DNA of 33,946 nt from a bacterium HR30 (lineage in GTDB: Bacteria > Desulfobacterota > Binatia > HRBIN30), in assembly GCA_002898795.1 (NCBI GenBank), contig BEIG01000026.1, positions 1-33,946 on the forward strand, in the 5' to 3' direction. The translations under genes were made by a program, and so were the position numbers. The notes under the pieces are model-generated. The model saw only the letters and a program-made list of their open reading frames with translations, had not been told where the DNA came from and did no database searches. Positions 8,433 through 30,952 of this stretch are shown here, one piece after another (the first letter of the stretch is position 1; the number at the start of each line of letters is the position of its first letter).

Positions 8433-8786
8433 TCAGCCGGTGTACCCCCACTTTCGCTTGTTTGCTTCGACTTGCTCCGGAGTTGGTTTGGGCTTTTGTT
8501 CGTGTTTCTTAACCTGAAATTCCCCGCTGTGCTCGCGAATTTCGTAATTGAGGGCAATGTCGCTCTTGAAAATTTCCGGTACAGCCGATTCTTCGAAAAT
8601 CGCTTGCCACGGGCATTCCGGTTCGCAGGCGCCGCAATCGATGCATTCGTCGGGGTGGATGTACAGTTGGTTGGGAAAATGCTCGCGGTTGGAACCGACG
8701 TATTCGTAAATGCAGTCCACGGGACAAACAGATACGCACGCCGTGTCTACACAGTCGATGCAAAGTCGCGTGATGATGTACGCCAT
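8433..8786 (-). CDS. fdxA: 7Fe ferredoxin ([3Fe-4S][4Fe-4S], FdI/FdxA type)
   Basis: A 117-residue electron carrier. The nine cysteines C9, C12, C17, C21, C25, C48, C51, C54 and C58 align with Azotobacter FdI. By that homology C9/C17/C58 would bind a 3Fe cluster, C21/C48/C51/C54 a 4Fe cluster, and C12/C25 would be free. The motifs [17 protein letters not shown] and [12 protein letters not shown] are plain. An insertion of about eight residues (around [11 protein letters not shown]) lengthens the loop between the halves relative to FdI. A Lys/Pro-rich C-terminal tail ([13 protein letters not shown]) follows. GGAGGAGAGG directly precedes the ATG. The gene lies 24 bases downstream of the Rrf2 regulator and shares its transcript, so it is probably under Rrf2 control. 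Its redox partner is not evident in the window. Confidence 0.9.
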
Positions 8787-8810: not shown

Positions 8811-9263
8811 TCAATGTTCCGCAAGTTGATGTTTTTCTTGGAGCCGCGGGACGAGCCCGTAGCGATCGGCAATAGCCTGAATTGTGATTTGTTCCAGGTA
8901 CTGGGCTAATAATTGTTGCGCACCGCGCCAAATGTGAATTTGCGTACAAACCGGAGCGAAGCAGCAGGCTTCGTCTTCCTCGTTGACACAGTCAATCAAG
9001 CAAAGAGGACCTTCTACGCTCTCGTAGACTTCGCGCAAGGTAATGTCGCTCGCAGGCCTACCGAGTCGAAAGCCTCCCCTGGCGCCAGGCACCGAGGTCA
9101 GCAAGCCAGCCTCGACCAAGCTGCGCAGGATTTTGGAAAGAAACGGTGCCGGAATATTCTGCCGGACCTGAATTTCCCGGCGTGGAACAAATCGCCCCTG
9201 GGGCTGGGCCGCGACGTAGCAGAGCGCCCGCACCGCATAGTCGACCCGGCGCCCCACGTTCAT
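8811..9263 (-). CDS. Rrf2-family Fe-S transcriptional regulator
   Basis: A 150-residue Rrf2 regulator. The N-terminal winged helix starts MNVGRRVDYAVRALCYVA. The recognition region IPAPFLSKILRSLVEAGLL and the wing SVPGARGGFRLGRP match the family. The cluster loop carries C88, C92, C100, C101 and C106; the core spacing C92-x7-C100-x5-C106 is close to IscR/NsrR/RirA arrangements. Members sense iron, Fe-S supply, NO or redox state (family knowledge). Which signal applies here cannot be told. The ATG at 9263 has CCGGAG about eight bases upstream; the longer open frame to 9380 runs into its own promoter. It is first gene of a two-gene unit with the ferredoxin and probably autoregulated through the palindrome at 9371-9388. 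Confidence 0.87.
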   Translation of the reverse strand: MNVGRRVDYAVRALCYVAAQPQGRFVPRREIQVRQNIPAPFLSKILRSLVEAGLLTSVPGARGGFRLGRPASDITLREVYESVEGPLCLIDCVNEEDEACCFAPVCTQIHIWRGAQQLLAQYLEQITIQAIADRYGLVPRLQEKHQLAEH

Positions 9264-9370
9264 GATCGAACTCCGGTGGGAAAAACGGCTTCGAGTCACA
9301 GCAGCTCCGCAGTGTTCCTTTTCATATTTGCGCGTCCTTGGCGGCGTGCGCTCGAGCGCCCGAGCCAAAG

Positions 9371-9409: not shown

Positions 9410-10297
9410 TCAACGTAAGCCGTGAGCCACCGCTTCGGCCACTCGAACCGCGTCGAGCGTGGCCGCCACATCGTGGGTGCGCACCATGGCTGCACCATGA
9501 AGCACGGCGATGGTGGCTGCGGCCAGCGAGGCTGCCAGCCGTTCGTTCGGGTCCGCCCGTCCCGTGATTTTACCTAGGAAAGATTTCCTGGAGGCGCTGA
9601 CCAAGAGCGGTCTCCCAAGCCGGCGAAAGCGCCGGAGGTGTCGAAGAATGATTAGGTCGACTTCATACCACGGAACGGCAGCGCTTCGGTAAAAGCCAAT
9701 GCCTGGGTCGAGAACTAAGCGATCCGCGGGTACTTGGGCTTGTCTTGCTCTGTTGCGGCAAGCGCGCAAAAGCCGCTCGATCATGGTTAAAGGCGACCCC
9801 CGTTCTTTTCCTCGAGGCTGGGCCATGAGGATTAGCCCTTTGGCTTGTCGGGCGACTTCCGGCATTTCTGGGTCAGCGGTGAGACCGCTAACGTCATTTA
9901 AAATTTGCGCGCCGGCGGCTAGCCCAGCGGCAGCCACCGTGGCGCGTTGCGTGTCGATAGAAATGGGAAGGTCAGTTTCCTCGCGTGCCACCTTGACGGC
10001 GGCAACCAGCCGGCGCTGTTCCTCCTCGGCATCGATCCACCCAGCCCGATAGGGTGCCGTGGACATGGCACCGAGATCGATGAGCGACGCACCTGCATCG
10101 GTTGCCTCCCGGACTCGTGCGGCCAAAGCCTTCTCACTTTGAGCCACGGAGCCAAGGAAAAATGACTCAGGACTTACATTGATGGCTGCCATGACGCGCG
10201 TGGGAAAGCCATCGCCCACCTCCAGGCCAGCGAGATTGGCGTAAATCCGGGGGCGTGGTTTACTTCCCTTTCCACTCGGGTTTGCGCTTTTGGGCAA
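9410..10297 (-). CDS. Dihydropteroate synthase-family protein, archaeal-like variant
   Basis: A TIM-barrel pterin-binding enzyme of up to 295 residues. DHPS motifs are clear: AAINVSPESF (pterin site Asn), SIDT, NDVSG, LDPGIGF, SASRKSFLG and VRTHDV. Two segments depart from bacterial FolP. The loop usually reading GGESTRPG is GAMSTAPYRAG, losing the conserved Arg, and the LMHMQG segment is LMAQPRG. SPESFxxGSV with MSTAPY is, from memory, the style of archaeal DHPS homologues. The enzyme may therefore condense a pterin pyrophosphate with an aromatic amine for folate or for a methanopterin-type cofactor; this is inference. The first usable start is a TTG at 10297, overlapping the end of the enoyl-CoA hydratase gene by 38 bases. 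The nearest ATG would remove about 35 residues and probably part of the fold, so the exact start is uncertain. Confidence 0.75.
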   Translation of the reverse strand: MPKSANPSGKGSKPRPRIYANLAGLEVGDGFPTRVMAAINVSPESFFLGSVAQSEKALAARVREATDAGASLIDLGAMSTAPYRAGWIDAEEEQRRLVAAVKVAREETDLPISIDTQRATVAAAGLAAGAQILNDVSGLTADPEMPEVARQAKGLILMAQPRGKERGSPLTMIERLLRACRNRARQAQVPADRLVLDPGIGFYRSAAVPWYEVDLIILRHLRRFRRLGRPLLVSASRKSFLGKITGRADPNERLAASLAAATIAVLHGAAMVRTHDVAATLDAVRVAEAVAHGLR

Positions 10298-11039
10298 ACG
10301 CCATCACTCCTTCCATTAAATCTTCGGAACGAAACAGCTCGCCAATGAGCGAATACGAGCGGCTCATTGCCTCTTCCAAAGGAAGTCCCTGGCTTTGCAT
10401 AGCGACTTGCTTGGTGGCGCGGACCGAAATGGGCGAGCATTCTAGAATCTCGTTGGCCCATCGTTCCGCAGCGGCCCGGAGCTCGCTCGCGGGAACCACT
10501 TCGTTGACGATGCCCCAGCGGTGTGCTTCTTGCGCCGTCATGTGTTTACCCGTGAGCATGTAGCCCATGGCAATTTTCAGTGGCAGGTGGCGAGGGAGCC
10601 GCTGCATGCCACCGGCGAGCGCGGCTAAGCCGACCCGGGGTTCGGGAAGCCCAAAACGGGCGTGCTCGGCGGCAACGATGATGTCGCACGCTAAGGCAAT
10701 CTCGAAACCCCCGCCAAGCGCGAAACCATTGACCGCAGCAATCACCGGCTTGAACAAATCGAACCTCGCGGTGATGCCACCGAAACCGCCGCTGCCAACC
10801 TGAATGTTGCCCATCCCTTGCGAGGCGGAATACTTGAGGTCATTGCCCGCCGAAAACGCCTTGTCTCCTGCGCCGGTAATAACGGCGACCCATGCATCGG
10901 CATCGGCGGCAAAGTCGTCGAATGCTTGGGACAGTTCCAAGTTTGCCGGTGGATGGAGGGCATTCATGACCTCAGGTCGGTTGATCGTGATCCACACGAT
11001 TCTCCCGGACTTTTCGTAACGGATAAACTCAAACGGCAT
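10260..11039 (-). CDS. Enoyl-CoA hydratase/isomerase family protein
   Basis: A crotonase-fold protein of 259 residues. Both catalytic glutamates are present: Glu113 in GGGFEIALACD and Glu133 in FGLPEPRVGL. The oxyanion-hole segments KAFSAGNDLKY (around residue 65) and the ALGGG stretch are also present. This supports hydration of a 2-enoyl-CoA. The GMQRLPRHLP and LTGKHMTAQEAHRWGIVNEVV segments resemble carnitinyl-CoA dehydratase/CaiD-like members, but the substrate cannot be fixed. The ATG at 11039 is preceded by GGAGG about six bases away; the longer frame to 11120 is not supported. Its 3' end overlaps the DHPS-like gene, suggesting translational coupling. Confidence 0.88.
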   Translation of the reverse strand: MPFEFIRYEKSGRIVWITINRPEVMNALHPPANLELSQAFDDFAADADAWVAVITGAGDKAFSAGNDLKYSASQGMGNIQVGSGGFGGITARFDLFKPVIAAVNGFALGGGFEIALACDIIVAAEHARFGLPEPRVGLAALAGGMQRLPRHLPLKIAMGYMLTGKHMTAQEAHRWGIVNEVVPASELRAAAERWANEILECSPISVRATKQVAMQSQGLPLEEAMSRSYSLIGELFRSEDLMEGVMAFAQKRKPEWKGK

Positions 11040-22548: not shown

Positions 22549-25383
22549 TCACCGGGGCGAGGGGATGAACCGGACCTTCCGGCGAGCAGCTTGCGCCACG
22601 TCGTTACGCTGGAACCGAAAGGCAAAGGTTTCTCCGTGGATCCATGCGGGTACCCAGTCTCCAAAATGGATTTCCGGCTGGATGCGATTGAACCGATTGT
22701 CGTCGGCAGTGCCGCCTGGATCGCCATTGTTGCCGCCGGGCAAAACGTTCCGCGCCCGGATGCCACGGGGGTCGAGCTCGACGACGAAACGCATCGAAGC
22801 GCCGCCGGAGAAGTCGAAGTTGTCGCTGTTCAGGCTAAAGCCGGCAGGGTTGACCGTCTCGCGGAACCCAGGGGCGGCAAAGGGACCTAGGTCGAAAATA
22901 TTGAGCCCAGCCTGCCCCAGGAAGTGCTGAAAGCGCACTCGGTGAATGCGCCCCCAGAGCCATTGGTTCTGGTCGTTAGTGGAGAATTTGCCCTGTAGGA
23001 ATTCAAGCCCGTCGCGGAGTGCGCGGAGCAAAATTTCATCGCGCCGCTCACGCTCGGGGGTGTTGCGATCGTCCCACAGGGAGCTTTCACCGGTGGCGTC
23101 TTTCGTGTGCACGACAAATCCGGCATCCGTGCGTTCTTCGTCTTCCAAGAGGTGCAAGAGGGCACGCGTGGCATCGTCTCCTCCGGGCACGCCAATTCCC
23201 GTGCCGGCGAAGTCGTCGGCCAAGGTGAGGCGGCTCAAGCGGGTCAGGAATCCGGCGAAGATGGAGGTGGCGACAGCGTCCTCTTTCTCCTCATCGGTAA
23301 TCGGTCGGGAGCGCTGCGGCATGTCATTCCGTTCATCCGCGGGGTCGACACCCGCGGGGGTATCGAACGGCGGCGAGCCATCCCGTTCTTCTCCCCACTG
23401 CCGTAAGCGATCGAGGGCTTCTGCCATTTCTCGGGTCACGAGTTCCGGCCGCCGCTCTGCTGCAGCGAACAGGAACCGAAGAAACCTGGCCGCTTCCTTC
23501 GAGCTGTGGTCGTACTGGAAGCGTGCCATATCTTCCAAATGCAGCTTTCCCGGACCGCTACGGGTGATGGCGTTGGTTAGAAGCTCTGTGGCCCGCTGGG
23601 CGCGGAAGCCGTTGGCGAACTGATACCCAAGGTACACGTCGTCGTTGAGTGGGTCGTTGTCCAACGTTCCACCAACTTGATCGTTGTTGGCGGTGACAAG
23701 AAAACCAGCCGCGGGATTGACCGCTTGCGGGATTTTTTCGCTGGGGAGCCAGAGAGTTCGACCTTGGGCATCGGTTAACCACTCAGCTTCGCCCGTACCT
23801 GGTAGGGGCAGGTACGGAACCACGCCCTGGGGTCGCTGCGGTATCAAAACCTGAGTGGAATAAGCGATATTCCCCTCGATGTCGGCCCAAATCCAGTTTT
23901 GCGCTCCTACGCCAAAGTTTCGCAAAGCGTTGCGGAAGTCGTTCACGTTGCGCGTTCGCATGAGGTCGAACAGGAAGCGTGCATCGTTGGTGATCTCGTG
24001 CCCGGTCCACCGCACTGTCATGCCCGTGGCTGCAAGCCCAACCACGCCGTCGTTAAGGTTGGGATCGGCCACGTTCGGCCCGTGGTGAGGCACCACTTCG
24101 ATCACGAGCACAAACGGCTGTGGACGACCACGCATGGCGATAGGCTCTTCGATGCGCAACACGGGCACGCGGTTACCACGAAAGCGGACCGTTCGTGGCG
24201 AGGGCGGATAATCTGCGGGTGTTTCGAATTCCTCCACGTACACGTCCGTGACATCGTACCCCGCCGTGGTGGCGCCCCAAGCACCGTTGCGATTGTGCCC
24301 CAAAATCACACCCGGAAGCCCTGGGAAGATCACCCCGATGACGTCCTCCTGGGTTTCGGCAATCGCGAGATGCAGCATGTGCCACACGGGCGGGTTGAAC
24401 AGCGCTAGGTGGGGGTCGTTAGCCAAAAGCGCATGTCCGCTCTGGCTGAACCTCGGCGACACGATCCAATTGTTGCTCCCTGCACCGCGGCTGCGACGAC
24501 CAAACGGCAGAGCAGCCGCAAGCTCGTCGAACATGGCCGAGAGTTCTTCCAAGACGCTGGGCGGCGGCAGCAAGAGCCGATCCTCGATTCGCGGCGAAAC
24601 GTGGTTGGCCAACCGTGGCACCCTTGGAGGAAGCACTGTGGTTGGTGCCGAGGGCGCGAAGCGGTAAACGTCACGAAAAACAGCCTCAGGCAAATTCTGC
24701 TGCGCCCGAGCCCATTGGATTTCCTCGCCCGAGGTGTCGGAGAGACTAAAAGCCTGGAGGCGGGCCACGGCGAGACTATCTGCCGGTTCCCACGGGCTGA
24801 GCTGCTCGGCGGTGAATCCCAAGACTCCGACCAACGTGTACTCAGGCGGCAGGTGGGCACCGTTTCGGCCTGCCTTGAGGTCCGTTAGCCACGCATTCAC
24901 GCCAGCACTGTAGGCCTCCAGGAGGTGGGCCACTTCAGGGTCCTGAGCTTGCACGTACTCCCACATCGCTTGGTGCAGTCGCCGGCCGTCGCGTGTGGTG
25001 AAAAAGGTCCGCATTTGCACGTCGGTCGTCAGCGAAAGTCGGCCGAAGAGCTCACTGAGGCGGCCAGTGGCGAACCGGCGGATAACATCCATCTCCCAAA
25101 AGCGTGCTTGCGCAGTGAGGTAGCCTTGTACGTACAGCGCTGAGGCGTAGTTGGGCGCGTACACGTGCGGCATCCCTAAGTCGTCGAAAACGACGTCGAC
25201 TATGCCACCAAGACCCGCAACCTCGATCGTGCGTTCGGTCGGTAGCGCGGCGATCGGATCCTGCGTCCCTTCGCCATCGTCGCCACAGCCGCTTGCCACT
25301 ACCACGGCGACAGCGAGTGCTAGGAGAAGTGAGCCGGATGAAAGGAGACGCTTCGCAAAGAGAAAAGATCGTTCGTGGCTCAT
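22549..25383 (-). CDS. Penicillin acylase-family (S45 Ntn-hydrolase) lipoprotein
   Basis: A 944-residue amidohydrolase of the penicillin G acylase/acyl-homoserine-lactone acylase superfamily. MSHERSFLFAKRLLSSGSLL and the following hydrophobic run end in a lipobox with Cys33 (ASGC), implying a lipid-anchored envelope enzyme. The autocatalytic Ntn nucleophile is expected at Ser303 in RGAGSNNWIVSP. It would split an alpha chain (about 34-302) from the beta chain. Beta-chain landmarks NDPHLALFNPPVWHMLHL and NRNGAWGATTAGYDVTDVY are present. At 944 residues it is longer than typical members (about 750-850). Substrates could be lactone signals, beta-lactams or other N-acyl amides. The ATG at 25383 is chosen for the lipoprotein signal; the open frame upstream of it is an overrun. 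It is divergent from the CMD-like gene. Confidence 0.88.
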   Translation of the reverse strand: MSHERSFLFAKRLLSSGSLLLALAVAVVVASGCGDDGEGTQDPIAALPTERTIEVAGLGGIVDVVFDDLGMPHVYAPNYASALYVQGYLTAQARFWEMDVIRRFATGRLSELFGRLSLTTDVQMRTFFTTRDGRRLHQAMWEYVQAQDPEVAHLLEAYSAGVNAWLTDLKAGRNGAHLPPEYTLVGVLGFTAEQLSPWEPADSLAVARLQAFSLSDTSGEEIQWARAQQNLPEAVFRDVYRFAPSAPTTVLPPRVPRLANHVSPRIEDRLLLPPPSVLEELSAMFDELAAALPFGRRSRGAGSNNWIVSPRFSQSGHALLANDPHLALFNPPVWHMLHLAIAETQEDVIGVIFPGLPGVILGHNRNGAWGATTAGYDVTDVYVEEFETPADYPPSPRTVRFRGNRVPVLRIEEPIAMRGRPQPFVLVIEVVPHHGPNVADPNLNDGVVGLAATGMTVRWTGHEITNDARFLFDLMRTRNVNDFRNALRNFGVGAQNWIWADIEGNIAYSTQVLIPQRPQGVVPYLPLPGTGEAEWLTDAQGRTLWLPSEKIPQAVNPAAGFLVTANNDQVGGTLDNDPLNDDVYLGYQFANGFRAQRATELLTNAITRSGPGKLHLEDMARFQYDHSSKEAARFLRFLFAAAERRPELVTREMAEALDRLRQWGEERDGSPPFDTPAGVDPADERNDMPQRSRPITDEEKEDAVATSIFAGFLTRLSRLTLADDFAGTGIGVPGGDDATRALLHLLEDEERTDAGFVVHTKDATGESSLWDDRNTPERERRDEILLRALRDGLEFLQGKFSTNDQNQWLWGRIHRVRFQHFLGQAGLNIFDLGPFAAPGFRETVNPAGFSLNSDNFDFSGGASMRFVVELDPRGIRARNVLPGGNNGDPGGTADDNRFNRIQPEIHFGDWVPAWIHGETFAFRFQRNDVAQAARRKVRFIPSPR

Positions 25384-25513
25384 GGTTGTTCCCTTACCCA
25401 GTCGCTCCCGCGTCGCGCAACCTGGTCGGCAAACTTTCTTCGTGCTCGGAGTCAAAACCGGCTGCCCGAGGAGTAGTTGACCGCTGCTGAAGCAACGTGA
25501 TAGCCACCAACAC

Positions 25514-25840
25514 ATGGCAGCCGCAGAGCAAGGAACACCGAAGCCACCAAAAGCGTATGAAGAGTTCGTCCAGCGCTTTCCTAAACTGGGCCAAGCGTGG
25601 GACGCCATTGCAGAAGCAGGCAACGAAGGGCCATTGGACCCCAAAACTCGCCGCTTGATCAAGTTAGCGGTGGCCGTGGGTGCGATGCGTGAAGGGGCGG
25701 TGCGGGCCAGTGTCCGAAAAGCCTTGGCGGCAGGAGTTGCGCCGGCAGAACTCGAACAGGTAGTGGCTCTAGCAGCGGGTACCATTGGGCTGCCTGCAGC
25801 GGTGGCGGTATTTACGTGGATGCGCGAAGCCGCCGAGTGA
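25514..25840 (+). CDS. Carboxymuconolactone decarboxylase-like (AhpD fold) protein lacking the CxxC
   Basis: A 108-residue helical protein of CMD/AhpD type. The KTRRLIKLAVAVGAMREGAVRA helix and the KALAAGVAPAELEQVVALAA segment match the family repeat. The usual redox CxxC/H site in the first helix is replaced by AMREGAVRA, and there is no cysteine in the protein, so alkylhydroperoxidase-type chemistry is unlikely. It resembles gamma-carboxymuconolactone decarboxylase-like members of unknown activity. It lies 130 bases from the divergent acylase start and 158 bases ahead of the CoA-transferase, with no strong ribosome site visible. Confidence 0.75.
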   Translation: MAAAEQGTPKPPKAYEEFVQRFPKLGQAWDAIAEAGNEGPLDPKTRRLIKLAVAVGAMREGAVRASVRKALAAGVAPAELEQVVALAAGTIGLPAAVAVFTWMREAAE

Positions 25841-25998
25841 CGGCAGCGCAGCGTGGCCGAGGCATCCAAGGAGTAAAGCGAGGAAAGAGTTTGAGTTGGC
25901 TGCCTCGCGCCGGTTGTGGTTCCTGACCGGAGAGGTGAAAAAAGGATCTTCTCGCGGGAGCTGCGCGCGGATAAGAGGTTGGGCCGACGAGGTTGCAG

Positions 25999-27333
25999 AT
26001 GGCGCGCACGAATCATCGAGACCCCAAAAGCATTTACCGGGACAAGCTCCGCACGGCAGCAGAAGCAGCCCAGCTCGTGCAACGCGAAGACACCCTGGCC
26101 GTGCCAATTGCTACCGGACAACCTACGGCTTTTCTCACGGCTCTCGGCGAACGGGACGACTGGATCAATCTCGTGATCTTCTCGGCCTTGATGATTCGGC
26201 CCTATGCCGTGTTGCAAAAGCCGGGCGTGAGGCTGATCTCGGGCTTTTTTGGTCCCATCGAGCGGATGCTGAAAGCAGCCGGTGCCCGAGTGGATTACTT
26301 GCCAGCGGACTTCCTGGGTTGGGAGCGATACGCTCGGCTCGTCCCTCCGCGTGTGATGGCGTCGGCGTTCGCTCCGATGGACGATCACGGATACCTCAAC
26401 TTCGGCCTTCACTCCGGTGCCACGTTCCATGCATTCGTGGCGGCGGCGCGCGACCCGAATCGGCTCGCGATTGCGGAGGTGAATACGACAATGCCCCAAG
26501 TGTGCGGGTTGGCACGGTTCGGCGGCCATCGGATTCACGTTTCGCAGGTTGATTGCATCATCGAAACCAACGACCCAGTGTTCGAACTTCCTGATGAACC
26601 GGTGGCGGATCAAGACCGGGCCATTGCCGAGTACGTCGAGCGCCTGATCGATAACGGAGCCACACTGCAGATTGGAATTGGTGGGGTCCCGAACATCGTC
26701 GCGAAATTGCTTGCCGAGGGGAAGAAGGGGGACTTTGGCATCCACACGGAGATGCTCGTCAACGGCATCATGCACTTACACCAAGCCGGCAAGGTGACGA
26801 ATCATAAAGGTGTGTTCGATGGCTTTTCCGTGGCCACTTTTTGTGCTGGCAGCCGACAGTTGTATGACTGGGTGCACCGGAACCCCGAAGTGCGGATGTT
26901 GCCAGTGACTTATGTAAACGATCCGGCGATCATTCGTCGTAACCGGGCGATGGTGAGCATTAACGGCGCGCTAGCCATCGACTTGAGTGGGCAAGTCATG
27001 GCCGACACCATAGGCCCACGACAGTATTCGGGGGTCGGCGGACATGAACTTTTTGTCATTGGCGCGCACGACAGCGAAGGGGGCAAGAGCTTTATTTGCT
27101 TGCATTCTACAGCGAACTCGGGCGGGGAGCGTGTTTCCACCATTGTCGCGAGTTTCGCGCCCGGTACGCCAACCACAACGCCCCGGCATCACGTGCAATA
27201 CGTGGTAACCGAGTTTGGCGCGGTGAATCTGTCCTTGCTGACCGACGCAGAGCGTGCCCGCGCATTAGTCGAGATTGCCCATCCTGATTTTCGCGATGAG
27301 CTCCGAGAGGCGGTGCGCAGGCGCTTTGGGTAA
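25999..27333 (+). CDS. Acetyl-CoA hydrolase/4-hydroxybutyrate CoA-transferase family protein
   Basis: A 444-residue class I CoA-transferase. The catalytic glutamate that forms the glutamyl-CoA thioester is expected at Glu251 in GIHTEMLVNGI. The C-terminal VGGHELFVIGAHDSEGGKSFICL and the GGVPNIVAKLLAEGKKGDFG segments match 4-hydroxybutyrate or acetate CoA-transferases. It would move CoA between acyl-CoA and a free acid such as acetate, butyrate or 4-hydroxybutyrate, and the exact pair is unknown. The ATG at 25999 has GAGG six bases upstream; a TTG two codons earlier is less likely. With gcdH and the enoyl-CoA hydratase elsewhere in the window, it fits organic-acid catabolism. Confidence 0.88.
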   Translation: MARTNHRDPKSIYRDKLRTAAEAAQLVQREDTLAVPIATGQPTAFLTALGERDDWINLVIFSALMIRPYAVLQKPGVRLISGFFGPIERMLKAAGARVDYLPADFLGWERYARLVPPRVMASAFAPMDDHGYLNFGLHSGATFHAFVAAARDPNRLAIAEVNTTMPQVCGLARFGGHRIHVSQVDCIIETNDPVFELPDEPVADQDRAIAEYVERLIDNGATLQIGIGGVPNIVAKLLAEGKKGDFGIHTEMLVNGIMHLHQAGKVTNHKGVFDGFSVATFCAGSRQLYDWVHRNPEVRMLPVTYVNDPAIIRRNRAMVSINGALAIDLSGQVMADTIGPRQYSGVGGHELFVIGAHDSEGGKSFICLHSTANSGGERVSTIVASFAPGTPTTTPRHHVQYVVTEFGAVNLSLLTDAERARALVEIAHPDFRDELREAVRRRFG

Positions 27334-27691: not shown

Positions 27692-28474
27692 ATGCGCGAA
27701 CTGATTGCCATGTGGCGGAACACGCGCATGGTGGTGTTCACGGCGCTGACGGCGTCGCTGTACGCGGCGATTTTGATTCCGTTCAAGGTCCTGCCCATCA
27801 TTCCGGGTGTCACAGAGCTGCGGCCTGCGAATGCGATTCCGGTGGTGTGTTCGTTCTTGTTCGGACCGGCTGCGGCGTGGGGTGCAGCAATTGGCAACGT
27901 GATCGGGGACTTTTTCGGCGGTTTTGGTCCTGGAGATCTTTTCGGTTTCGTGGGCAATTTTCTTTACGGCTTTTTGCCTTACCGGACGTGGGAGCTGTTG
28001 ACCCAGCGGCGCCCGGTCTTGCGTGGGCCCATGGATTGGCTTTTGTTCACGGCGGTGGTGGGTTTGGCCAGTGGAGCGTGTGCGTTGGTGATCGGCTGGG
28101 GACTGAATGTGTTGGGCTTTGTGCCGTTTCGGGTGCTGGGGAACATTGTATGGATCAACAACATGCTGGCCAGCATGTTGTTGGCTCCGTTTTTGTTGGC
28201 GGTGGTGTATCCGCGAGCAGAGCGGGGTGGTTTGACGTACGGGCAGGTGTTGGGGCGGCGGGAGACGGGTAGGGTGGGATTGGCTTACGTGGGTTTGGGG
28301 TTAGTGGTGGGTGCGGTTGGTGTGGGGATGTGGTTGGGTAACGGTTTGTCGAGCGGTAGCGTGCGTGTGCCGTGGGTGGGGGAGGGCGTTGCAGGGGGGA
28401 CCGGCGCATGGGCGGTGGGTTTGGGGTTAGCTCCGGTGTTGGTGGTGCTTTTGCTGGGGATGGTGTTGCTGTAG
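27692..28474 (+). CDS. ECF transporter S component (substrate-binding membrane subunit)
   Basis: A 260-residue polytopic membrane protein. The first helix ends with ALTASLYAAILIPFK, followed by PGVTELRPANAIPVVCSFLFGPAAAWGAAIGNVIGDFFGG. That architecture is typical of energy-coupling-factor S components that hand vitamins or metals to the EcfT/EcfA engine. It sits immediately before the ATPase gene (1-base gap) and upstream of EcfT, completing the cassette. Most S components have about 170-210 residues. This one carries about 70 extra C-terminal residues rich in Gly/Val/Leu that predict two more helices. The substrate is not deducible: no biosynthetic neighbour is present and I recognise no riboswitch in the 117 bases ahead. 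The coding strand at the 3' end is very G/T-rich with quadruplex motifs. Confidence 0.78.
   Translation: MRELIAMWRNTRMVVFTALTASLYAAILIPFKVLPIIPGVTELRPANAIPVVCSFLFGPAAAWGAAIGNVIGDFFGGFGPGDLFGFVGNFLYGFLPYRTWELLTQRRPVLRGPMDWLLFTAVVGLASGACALVIGWGLNVLGFVPFRVLGNIVWINNMLASMLLAPFLLAVVYPRAERGGLTYGQVLGRRETGRVGLAYVGLGLVVGAVGVGMWLGNGLSSGSVRVPWVGEGVAGGTGAWAVGLGLAPVLVVLLLGMVLL
28252..28399 (+). other. Two G-quadruplex motifs in the 3' part of the ECF S-component gene
   Basis: On the coding strand, 28252-28278 has five runs of three or more G separated by loops of 4, 4, 2 and 1 bases. 28374-28399 has four runs (GGG, GGGGG, GGG, GGGGGG) separated by 1, 1 and 7 bases. Both satisfy the usual G3+N1-7 consensus and would also be present in the mRNA, just ahead of the ATPase gene. 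Folding is inference. Confidence 0.45.
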
Positions 28475-28475
28475 C

Positions 28476-30182
28476 GTGGATGGGCCGAGCCAATTTGCGG
28501 TGTACCTGCGCGGGGTGAGTTTCACGTACGCGGGAGGGGCTTTGCCTGCGTTACGTGGGGTGGACCTGGTGGTGAGGCGGGGGGAGATGGTGGTGGTCAT
28601 GGGTGCAAGCCGCGCGGGCAAGAGCACCTTGGTCAAAGTGTTGAACCGAACCATTCCCTCCTTTCAGCCGGGCTCGTTGCAGGGGGAGATTTGGCTATTG
28701 GGGCAACGCTGCGAACAGGAAACCGTGGCCGACTTTGCTGGGCGCATCGGACTGGTGGCGCAAGATTTCGAGGCCCAGTTATTTTCGACCTCGGTAGAGT
28801 GCGAGGTCGCCTTTGCTCTGGAGCAGTTTGGGGTCAGCCCACCGGAAATGCGCCAGCGGGTGCACGCGGCGTTGCGGTCAGTTGGTCTGGAGGGATTCGA
28901 GGAGCGCGACCCGGCGACGCTCTCGGGTGGCGAGAAGCAGCGCTTAGCCATCGCAGCGATGCTGGCGTTGGAACCCGAGTTGTTGGTGCTCGATGAACCG
29001 ACGACGGACTTGGACCCGCTGGGCAAAGAGGAGGTGCTAGCGGTGTTGGCTGGCTTGCGGCGAGAGGGCCGAACCCTCGTGGTCGTGGAGCACGAAACTA
29101 TCGCCGCGGAAATGGCTGACCGGGTCGTATTCCTGGCCGAAGGCCGTGTGCTGGCCGACATGCCCGCGCAGGCTGCGTTACGCAGCCCTGAATGGTTCCG
29201 GTGCTGTGCAGTGAGACCTCCAGACCTGGCGGTGCTTGCACACGGTCTGGGCTGGGCCGAGCCAGTGCGGAGTGTAGAGCAGGCTGCGGCACGGGTACGG
29301 GAACGTCTGATGCCGGTGCAAAAGGATGATCGTGCTGCGGGGCAGCAGCAGGGCGAGGCATCGGGGCACGACGTTTTGCTCGTGGCCGAGAAGCTGTCGT
29401 TGCGCTACGAAGCGCATGCCCCTCCTGCCTTGGCCAACGTGTCGCTGACAATTCGCACCGGGGAGTTTCTAGCGCTGCTGGGGCACAACGGTTCTGGGAA
29501 AACGACGCTGGCGAAGTGCTTGAACGGCCTTCTGCGGCCTTCGGACGGTGAGGTACGCTGGAAGGGCGTGCCCATTCTCAGCATTCCGTTGGCCGAGCGG
29601 GCTGTGGCCGTAGGATACGTGTTTCAGAACCCCGACCATCAAATCTTCGCTGACCGGGTTTGGGACGAAGTGGCCTTCGGGCCGCGTAACTTGGGCTTAT
29701 CCGAGCAAGCCGTGGCCGAGCGAGTGCGGCAAGCTCTGGGGGCCGTGGGTTTGCTGGAACGATGCGACGACGATCCCTTTTGGCTCACGAAGGGCGAGCG
29801 TCAGCGGCTTGCAGTAGCGTCGCTTCTTGCGCTGGAGCCCCAGGTATTGATTCTCGATGAGCCAACGACTGGTCTCGACTACAACGAGCAGCGACAAACG
29901 ATGGAACTCATCTGTCGGCTGCACCGGCAGGGCATGACAGTCATCATGATTACGCACACAGCTTGGTTGGTTGCGGAGTACGCCGAGCGAGTTGTGTTGC
30001 TCCATCGGGGTGAGCTTTTGTTCGACGGGCCTACGCACGAGCTTTTCGCACGGGACGATTTGATGAACGCCGCCCGATTTCGAGTGCCCGACATCGTTCG
30101 CCTGGGCCAGCGCTGTGGTGTGCGGGTACGTTCGGTGGAAGAGCTAGTGCGGATGGTGGGTCGGCGGAGCGAAGATCGATGA
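28476..30182 (+). CDS. ECF transporter fused double ATPase (EcfA1-EcfA2 in one chain)
   Basis: A 568-residue protein with two ABC ATPase domains, the fused arrangement also seen in YkoD-like systems. Domain 1: Walker A GASRAGKST (43-51), signature LSGGEKQ (149-155), Walker B LLVLDEPTTDLDP. Domain 2: Walker A GHNGSGKTT (336-344), signature LTKGERQ (437-443) in place of LSGGQ, Walker B VLILDEPTTGLD. The two domains would form an intramolecular dimer powering EcfT and the S subunit. The start is a GTG one base after the S-component stop, and the stop overlaps the EcfT start as ATGA, so the three genes are translationally coupled. The substituted second signature suggests asymmetric ATP sites. 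Naming is by architecture. Confidence 0.92.
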   Translation: MDGPSQFAVYLRGVSFTYAGGALPALRGVDLVVRRGEMVVVMGASRAGKSTLVKVLNRTIPSFQPGSLQGEIWLLGQRCEQETVADFAGRIGLVAQDFEAQLFSTSVECEVAFALEQFGVSPPEMRQRVHAALRSVGLEGFEERDPATLSGGEKQRLAIAAMLALEPELLVLDEPTTDLDPLGKEEVLAVLAGLRREGRTLVVVEHETIAAEMADRVVFLAEGRVLADMPAQAALRSPEWFRCCAVRPPDLAVLAHGLGWAEPVRSVEQAAARVRERLMPVQKDDRAAGQQQGEASGHDVLLVAEKLSLRYEAHAPPALANVSLTIRTGEFLALLGHNGSGKTTLAKCLNGLLRPSDGEVRWKGVPILSIPLAERAVAVGYVFQNPDHQIFADRVWDEVAFGPRNLGLSEQAVAERVRQALGAVGLLERCDDDPFWLTKGERQRLAVASLLALEPQVLILDEPTTGLDYNEQRQTMELICRLHRQGMTVIMITHTAWLVAEYAERVVLLHRGELLFDGPTHELFARDDLMNAARFRVPDIVRLGQRCGVRVRSVEELVRMVGRRSEDR

Positions 30183-30952
30183 AATTGAGCATTTATGTAG
30201 TGGCCAACACACCTCTGCACCGGTTGCACCCGGTGGTAAAGGTCGTCGGGATATTTTGTTTTTTTGTAGCCGCCTTTACGGCTGGAAGCCCGATCCAGAG
30301 TCTCCCGTTGGCAGCGGTGGTTGGGGCGCTTCTCTGGTTGGGTGGGGCATTGGCGAATGTGTGGCGGTTTCGGTGGTTTCTTGCGCTGGTGTTTTTCATG
30401 ACGTTTTTGGTGTGGAGCCTGTTTTTCCACAGTGAGGCGCCATGGTTTGCTTGGGGCCCGGTCCGTTTAGGGTACGACGGCGTTCGGTTCGCTTTGGCGA
30501 CTGCGTGCCGGCTGACGACATTTTTCGCCGTGGGTCTTTTGTTTCTTTCGACTACTCGCGTGGAGGAATTTGCCGACGCTCTCGGAATGATCGGTGTGCC
30601 AGCAAAGCTAGGGTTCGTCATGACCTTGGCGTTTCGACTCGTCCCGGCATTTGTCGACGCGGCGTTGTCCGTTGTGCAAGCGCAACGTTGCCGTGGCTTT
30701 GACTTCGATCGTGGCAATTGGCTTGAGCGGGTGCGTCACTACCTGCCGGTTATCGTGCCTGTTTTCATCGGGGCATTGCGCCGCGCTGATTTGATGGCCA
30801 TGGCGCTCGAGGCGAGAGGCTTTCAGCTTCCGGGCCCGCGCACGAGCTATCGCACTTACGCTTGGGGTTGGGGCGACGCAATTGCCCTTGTGGGCTCAGT
30901 GATGTTGGCCGGAACGTGGCTGCTTTGGGCTCGGTTTGCCGGGGGAAACTAA
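30179..30952 (+). CDS. ecfT: ECF transporter transmembrane coupling subunit EcfT
   Basis: A 257-residue membrane protein with about five to six helices, the energy-coupling subunit of the ECF importer. The two conserved cytoplasmic motifs contacting the ATPases are seen as AQRCRGFDFD and ALEARGFQLP (XRG/ARG type). The N-terminal HRLHPVVKVV is also characteristic. The ATG overlaps the preceding stop (ATGA at 30179-30182). Together with the S and fused A subunits it makes a complete importer. Convergent glmU ends 80 bases away, and no clear terminator is visible between them. Confidence 0.92.
   Translation: MKLSIYVVANTPLHRLHPVVKVVGIFCFFVAAFTAGSPIQSLPLAAVVGALLWLGGALANVWRFRWFLALVFFMTFLVWSLFFHSEAPWFAWGPVRLGYDGVRFALATACRLTTFFAVGLLFLSTTRVEEFADALGMIGVPAKLGFVMTLAFRLVPAFVDAALSVVQAQRCRGFDFDRGNWLERVRHYLPVIVPVFIGALRRADLMAMALEARGFQLPGPRTSYRTYAWGWGDAIALVGSVMLAGTWLLWARFAGGN

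Follow-up and report, generated by a model that had tools for sequence, protein, structure and literature searches.

A methanogen-like dihydropteroate synthase that probably serves folate synthesis in bacteria of the class Binatia

Does a bacterial dihydropteroate synthase (DHPS) with archaeal-like substrate loops make folate, or does it feed another pterin cofactor? The question is raised by an open reading frame at positions 9410-10297 of the window, the whole 33,946-nucleotide stretch of DNA analysed here. The earlier note on this DNA had proposed that the organism may use a different amine acceptor or make a tetrahydromethanopterin-type cofactor. We consider it probable that the reading frame is folP, encoding the one DHPS detected in this genome (G000), and that it serves ordinary folate synthesis by way of a methanogen-type variant of the enzyme, called here the STAPY form after its loop 2.

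The folP reading frame (9410..10297, minus strand; assigned by profile matches) is intact, with a TTG start, 295 codons and no internal stop. Its product passes the TIGR01496 DHPS equivalog model (211.2 bits, cut-off 162.6) and matches Pfam Pterin_bind at 181.3 bits (cut-off 25.5). The TTG, whose choice as start codon is uncertain, sits 38 bases within the reading frame of the enoyl-CoA hydratase directly upstream (10260..11033, minus strand, stop codon 10260-10262). A start downstream of residue 19 would be unlikely, because the structure model places two strands at residues 19-28. This predicted structure, built from a 5-sequence alignment with a mean pLDDT of 84.1, has a TIM-barrel fold and resembles solved DHPS (Foldseek, top E 2.3e-21); residues 79-84 in loop 2 have a pLDDT <50. 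Downstream of folP lie genes for a Rrf2-type regulator (8811..9275, minus strand) and a ferredoxin (8433..8786, minus strand) whose top matches are FdxA models, under their cut-offs; like the hydratase, both were assigned by profile matches. The hydratase, folP, the regulator and the ferredoxin stand together in four genomes of family f1 (G001, G002, G004 and G005), and only parts of the set occur in G003 and G006 of the same family. None of the three neighbours was seen beside folP outside f1 in the stretches examined.

Residue numbers below are those of K. pneumoniae FolP (282 residues, as E. coli 1aj0) unless stated otherwise. The window protein bears the motifs NVSPESFFLGSV, GAMSTAPYRAG and LILMAQPRG, in which SPESF, STAPY and LMAQP take the place of the TPDSF, STRPG and LMHMQ of canonical FolP. 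The loop 1 motif INVSPESFFLGS (10148..10183; canonical [LI]NVTPDSFSDGG) contains Ser24, Glu26 and Ser32 and keeps Phe28. Loop 2, DLGAMSTAPYRAG (10040..10078; canonical GGESTRPG), has Ala63 for Arg63 and keeps Thr62 and Pro64, and the loop 3 segment LILMAQPRG (9809..9835; canonical LMHMQG) has Ala140 for His140. The α6 segment LDPGIGFYRSA (9680..9712) keeps Phe190, which is missing from the methanogen-type DHPS compared. All these segments lie on the minus strand and were placed by sequence and residue mapping. The pterin-site residues Asn22, Asp96, Asn115, Asp185, Lys221, Arg255 and His257 are kept in the window protein and in all 19 other STAPY proteins. What the earlier note had described in the protein, namely kept pterin-binding residues, an altered STAPY loop, an LMAQPRG segment and an SPESF opening, was thus found as described.

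A search of 58 related genomes, that of the organism itself included, returned a DHPS over cut-off in 57. Each of the 15 genomes that represent the window's order (G000-G014, own included) and each of the five of family f8 (G018, G024, G031, G038 and G051) carries the STAPY form, which is absent from the remaining 37 DHPS (28 canonical, 8 of an SSxP form, and a fragment of the SSxP form in G020). This distribution shows that the STAPY motif is not a chance variant. G033 gave no DHPS match, though it is rated 99% complete and has FolK and FolC. Each of the 15 order genomes has one TIGR01496 match, to which G011 adds a 27.4-bit match in a 986-residue frame. The nearest named relative of the window protein, 80% identical across residues 1-295, belongs to a Candidatus Binatia MAG (class Binatia, phylum Ca. 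Binatota). A scan of viral contigs found no relative. The second canonical folP that the earlier note had suggested looking for was not found in G000 (assembly 95.8% complete) and was rejected as a candidate: the two PF00809 matches of this genome are the 9410-10297 DHPS and MetH. Two variants were observed elsewhere in the class. The SSxP form (L036, L037, L059, L061, L062, L064, L067 and L068), on a long branch in 8 Binatia genomes, has Ser62, His, Ala, Asn or Arg at residue 63, and M-G-[LF]-F-L at 188-192. G039 and G025 carry a second DHPS-like gene (L070 and L071, with SITP in loop 2) alongside a canonical DHPS.

For archaeal DHPS, the search covered 60 genomes from the phylum to which a named Methanoregula MAG belongs; 49 of these gave a match and 33 a match over cut-off. 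It yielded 30 loci, and the matches outside them include second DHPS copies in G080, G090, G100, G108 and G115. The labels methanogen-type and haloarchaeal-type are our own, given by name for L004-L006 and L085 and by tree and motif for the rest. The methanogen-type comparators are thus Methanoregula L004, Methanomicrobiales L005 and L006, and further genomes of the same phylum. They share with the STAPY proteins SxESF, mostly STAP, MA instead of MH, and RTHDV or RTHDI. The canonical form, or one close to it, is seen in haloarchaeal-type DHPS and in a further small set of archaeal proteins (L092-L095, L098); the haloarchaeal-type count is 7 canonical out of 7, second haloarchaeal copies lying outside this count, and the plasmid-borne haloarchaeal DHPS L082 is non-canonical.

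In a quick tree of 82 rows, the STAPY (20 rows) and methanogen-type (19 rows) proteins were joined with an SH-aLRT of 98. In a careful tree, computed under a site-mixture model after removal of six motif stretches, each of the two forms one clade and the clades are sister groups, joined at 100/98 (unrooted). Since the join holds after this removal, the grouping is independent of the striking motifs. The archaeal likeness that the earlier note had pointed to was therefore borne out by the kind of tree it had proposed, in which the protein lies outside canonical bacterial FolP. The 82 rows were drawn from 109, window protein included; the 27 left out are duplicates (L001, L045, L075-L078), near copies (L115, L116), truncated L098, fragment L074, the odd L070, L071 and L082, and 14 of the 28 canonical Binatia rows. 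When the tree was rooted with remote MetH-like and archaeal DHPS-like outgroups, the join was supported at only 89/69. AU tests rejected a grouping of STAPY with canonical Binatia DHPS, only at p 0.041, and retained STAPY with SSxP (p 0.47). These tests used 54 of the 82 rows, to which 9 outgroup rows were added for the rooted tree; of these 9, the one from G000 was profile-scanned and is MetH. The groups cannot be told apart by identity alone: STAPY proteins are on average 38.0% identical to methanogen-type and 36.8% to canonical Binatia DHPS, and the window protein 35.3% (best 40.7%) and 36.9% (best 42.0%), respectively. From the trees, STAPY DHPS appears to belong to a lineage otherwise represented in this comparison by methanogen-type archaeal DHPS.

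The STAPY type may have come by transfer from archaea or may be an old form replaced elsewhere. The second origin, in which the methanogen-like enzyme was inherited within Binatia, STRPG is derived and there was no archaeal transfer, is a genuine possibility that we hold to be somewhat doubtful. It accords with the position of the outgroup root, between the two sides of the tree, and with the f8 rows, which form one clade within STAPY separate from the f1-f4 rows. However, the outgroups are remote and the root weak, and the canonical or SSxP DHPS of other Binatia families mean that such descent needs replacements within one class. This alternative concerns the origin of the gene and is compatible with the folate explanation. 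We regard it as unlikely that the methanogen likeness reflects convergence or long-branch attraction, the protein being a canonical bacterial FolP in which Arg63 and His140 had been lost independently. The modest AU p values and the overlapping identities leave room for this, and V41, F202 and G234 (window numbering) are common to canonical and not to methanogen-type DHPS; yet P32, R34, S42, E44, A77 and A159 (window numbering) are common to methanogen-type and rare in canonical DHPS, and the 100/98 join was obtained under a site-mixture model with the motifs removed. Archaeal contamination of the assembly might be suggested by a scan of the genome collection with exact 8-residue patterns, which found five loci, the four distant ones archaeal. 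It was rejected, its probability being negligible, in view of the same type in 20 genomes from two Binatia groups, the 80% identity to a named Ca. Binatia MAG, and neighbours conserved in some members of family f1.

To which amine the enzyme is suited was considered from residue tallies in which canonical Binatia DHPS are represented by 28 rows and methanogen-type DHPS by 21, with at most 4 residues listed per position per group. Ser24, Glu26, Ser32 and Ala140 are common to all STAPY and all methanogen-type DHPS (Ala140 in 21/21 of the latter), and Ala59 occurs in 19/20 and 19/21. Ala63 replaces Arg63 in all 20 STAPY proteins, which lack the STRPG typical of canonical loop 2, versus 13 of the 21 methanogen-type proteins, the remainder having Trp (6) or Gly (2). 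Arg63 is common in DHPS but not universal, SSxP forms likewise occurring without it. According to passages of PMC6057106, the pocket for pABA in S. aureus DHPS consists of Phe17, Pro53, Phe172 and Lys203, and the amine of pABA is bonded by Thr51. With motifs and constant offsets as the guide, these residues correspond to 28, 64, 190, 221 and 62. Phe28, Thr62, Pro64, Phe190 and Lys221 are kept in 20/20 STAPY proteins. Methanogen-type DHPS keep the other four but never Phe190 (0/21), having Arg (10), Lys (6), Leu (3) or Ile (2) instead. They also have Trp191 in 21/21, where STAPY proteins have Tyr, Phe or His, and PGD at 145-147, which is not the usual state in STAPY. Phe190 is found in haloarchaeal-type (7/7), other canonical-like archaeal (5/5), canonical Binatia (28/28) and plasmid-borne reference DHPS (10/10, one of them Sul4). 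Position 190 and its surroundings may thus help to select pABA or a bulkier archaeal amine. Residue 190 cannot decide alone, because it is Leu in 5/8 SSxP DHPS, which come from other Binatia with FolK in their genomes; for the same reason, loss of Phe190 alone is no marker of methanopterin.

Gene content was used to ask which cofactor the organism makes. Methanogen DHPS use β-RFA phosphate as the amine. Profile searches found Fae in none of 29 genomes (two methanogens as positive controls), Mch in none of 58 (two methanogens and Haloferax as positive controls), and β-RFAP synthase over cut-off in none of 58 (two methanogens, Haloferax and Sulfolobus as positive controls). For β-RFAP synthase there were three weak matches of 19.7 to 21.5 bits, the best in G000 scoring 20.4 against a cut-off of 113.5. 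Haloferax uses folate, as stated in part of PMC8305020, and has Mch and β-RFAP homologues, so that such homologues would not prove methanopterin; their absence speaks against methanopterin use. The methanopterin reading of the earlier note was accordingly not supported, Fae, Mch and β-RFAP synthase being absent. Conversely, FolK (127.7 bits), FolC (407.1), MetH (1204) and TrpE (571.6) score over cut-off in G000; FolK is present in 58/58 genomes, and FolC over cut-off in 53/56, including all 15 of the order and the five of f8. A PabB-like reading frame of 445 residues at G000:C54 scores 318.4 bits with TIGR00553, under the cut-off of 328.4. It is followed, with a 4-base overlap, by a class IV aminotransferase frame in a pabB-pabC-like arrangement; this PabC-like neighbour scores best with D-amino-acid transaminase models and is also under cut-off. 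Each of the 15 order genomes has two chorismate-binding matches of at least 205 bits. Because the pABA-packing residues are kept and the genome has a pabB-like gene next to a pabC-like one, each under its cut-offs, the other amine acceptor proposed for the window organism is not favoured.

None of the five genomes of family f8 gave a PabB-type match. Four of the five have one chorismate-binding match and G051 (84% complete) has none; in the single-contig G031 the only one is a TrpE-clade3 fusion (1140.6 bits; L134, 4218-6518, minus strand). CADD is an alternative pABA enzyme. It was found over cut-off in one f8 genome (G018), and no control genome exceeded the CADD cut-off. Missing PabB is not specific to STAPY, because four f5 genomes (G015, G029, G043 and G049) pair a canonical DHPS with one chorismate-binding match, also with no CADD over cut-off. 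In three f12 genomes (G022, G048 and G055; L138-L140), a canonical DHPS occurs with one chorismate-binding match and CADD over cut-off, as if CADD replaced PabB; the CADD frame of G055 contains an internal TAA. An absent PabB match is thus weak evidence of another amine.

We therefore weighed whether STAPY DHPS takes a non-pABA arylamine, such as a decarboxylated or ribosylated aminobenzene, towards a folate-like or methanopterin-like cofactor. Ser24, Glu26, Ala140 and mostly Ala63, common with methanogen-type DHPS, would fit this, as would the f8 STAPY genomes with at most one chorismate-binding match (the TrpE fusion in G031) and CADD over cut-off in just one of five. Against it stand Phe190 in 20/20 with PGD 145-147 not usual, FolC and MetH in G000, the missing β-RFAP synthase, Mch and Fae, and PabB absence in the canonical-DHPS f5 genomes; we judge it very unlikely. 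The broader idea that a DHPS lineage of archaeal methanopterin synthesis serves a bacterial one-carbon cofactor with an amine other than pABA, without the known methanopterin genes, is more improbable still. If it were true, the cofactor would best be sought in f8, where STAPY coincides with the lack of a recognisable PabB and with CADD over cut-off in 1/5.

In the favoured folate explanation, FolK would supply hydroxymethyldihydropterin pyrophosphate and the PabB-PabC-like pair pABA; STAPY DHPS would couple the two into dihydropteroate, to be passed to FolC. The enzyme would combine loop changes of the methanogen lineage (Ser24, Glu26, Ser32, Ala140, mostly Ala63) with a pABA pocket proper, the substitutions of the variant (Glu for Asp26, and Ala for both Arg63 and His140) lying in the loops. 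STAPY DHPS is presumed to be catalytically competent, and its conserved pocket suggests that it uses pABA. Some points count against the folate explanation: Leu190 in 5/8 SSxP DHPS, the PabB-like score under its cut-off, Ala63 in 20/20, f8 without a PabB-type match, identities that do not separate the groups, the rooted join of 89/69 and the modest AU p values.

STAPY DHPS is a variant form of a familiar enzyme, in a lineage where it was not expected. With canonical FolP (TIGR01496) it shares the predicted TIM barrel, the pterin-site residues and the pABA pocket Phe28, Pro64, Phe190 and Lys221; it differs in having Glu at 26 (canonical Asp), Ala at 63 (Arg) and Ala at 140 (His), in its shortened loop 3 and in its placement outside the canonical clade. 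A bond from Arg63 to pABA is predicted in a portion of PMC6787355. Loss of this residue should alter pABA or sulfonamide binding, and an Arg63-less enzyme raises the question of how widely the usual account of loop 2 and of sulfonamide binding applies. Sul1-Sul4 share with STAPY the DHPS family and a divergent pABA region, and the insensitivity of Sul1-3 works via a Phe-Gly in α6, as described in sections of PMC10328974. A mobile sulfonamide-resistance gene was rejected: the window protein is far under the Sul cut-offs (Sul4 133.9 bits versus 600), and all plasmid matches among the at least 5000 listed are under 60% identity.

A search by title and abstract, with most subscription journals outside it, found no report of methanogen-type DHPS in bacteria, and we claim no priority. 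Haloarchaea use folate and methanogens methanopterin, to go by parts of PMC8305020, and in our comparison the form of DHPS seems to follow the carrier (haloarchaeal-type canonical in 7/7, methanogen-type not, with L082 as an exception). Binatia would break this pattern, with a methanogen-type enzyme in a seemingly folate-based organism. STAPY DHPS thereby bears on the parting of the folate and methanopterin pathways and offers a natural test of the residues that choose between pABA and the archaeal amine, position 190 being a candidate.

Two other regions of the window were observed in passing. At 22549-26775 (minus strand), a reading frame of 1408 residues has a penicillin amidase domain spanning only residues 526-1394. 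At 27692-30952 (plus strand), QueT-like, ABC ATPase and CbiQ genes stand in series and resemble an ECF-type transporter.
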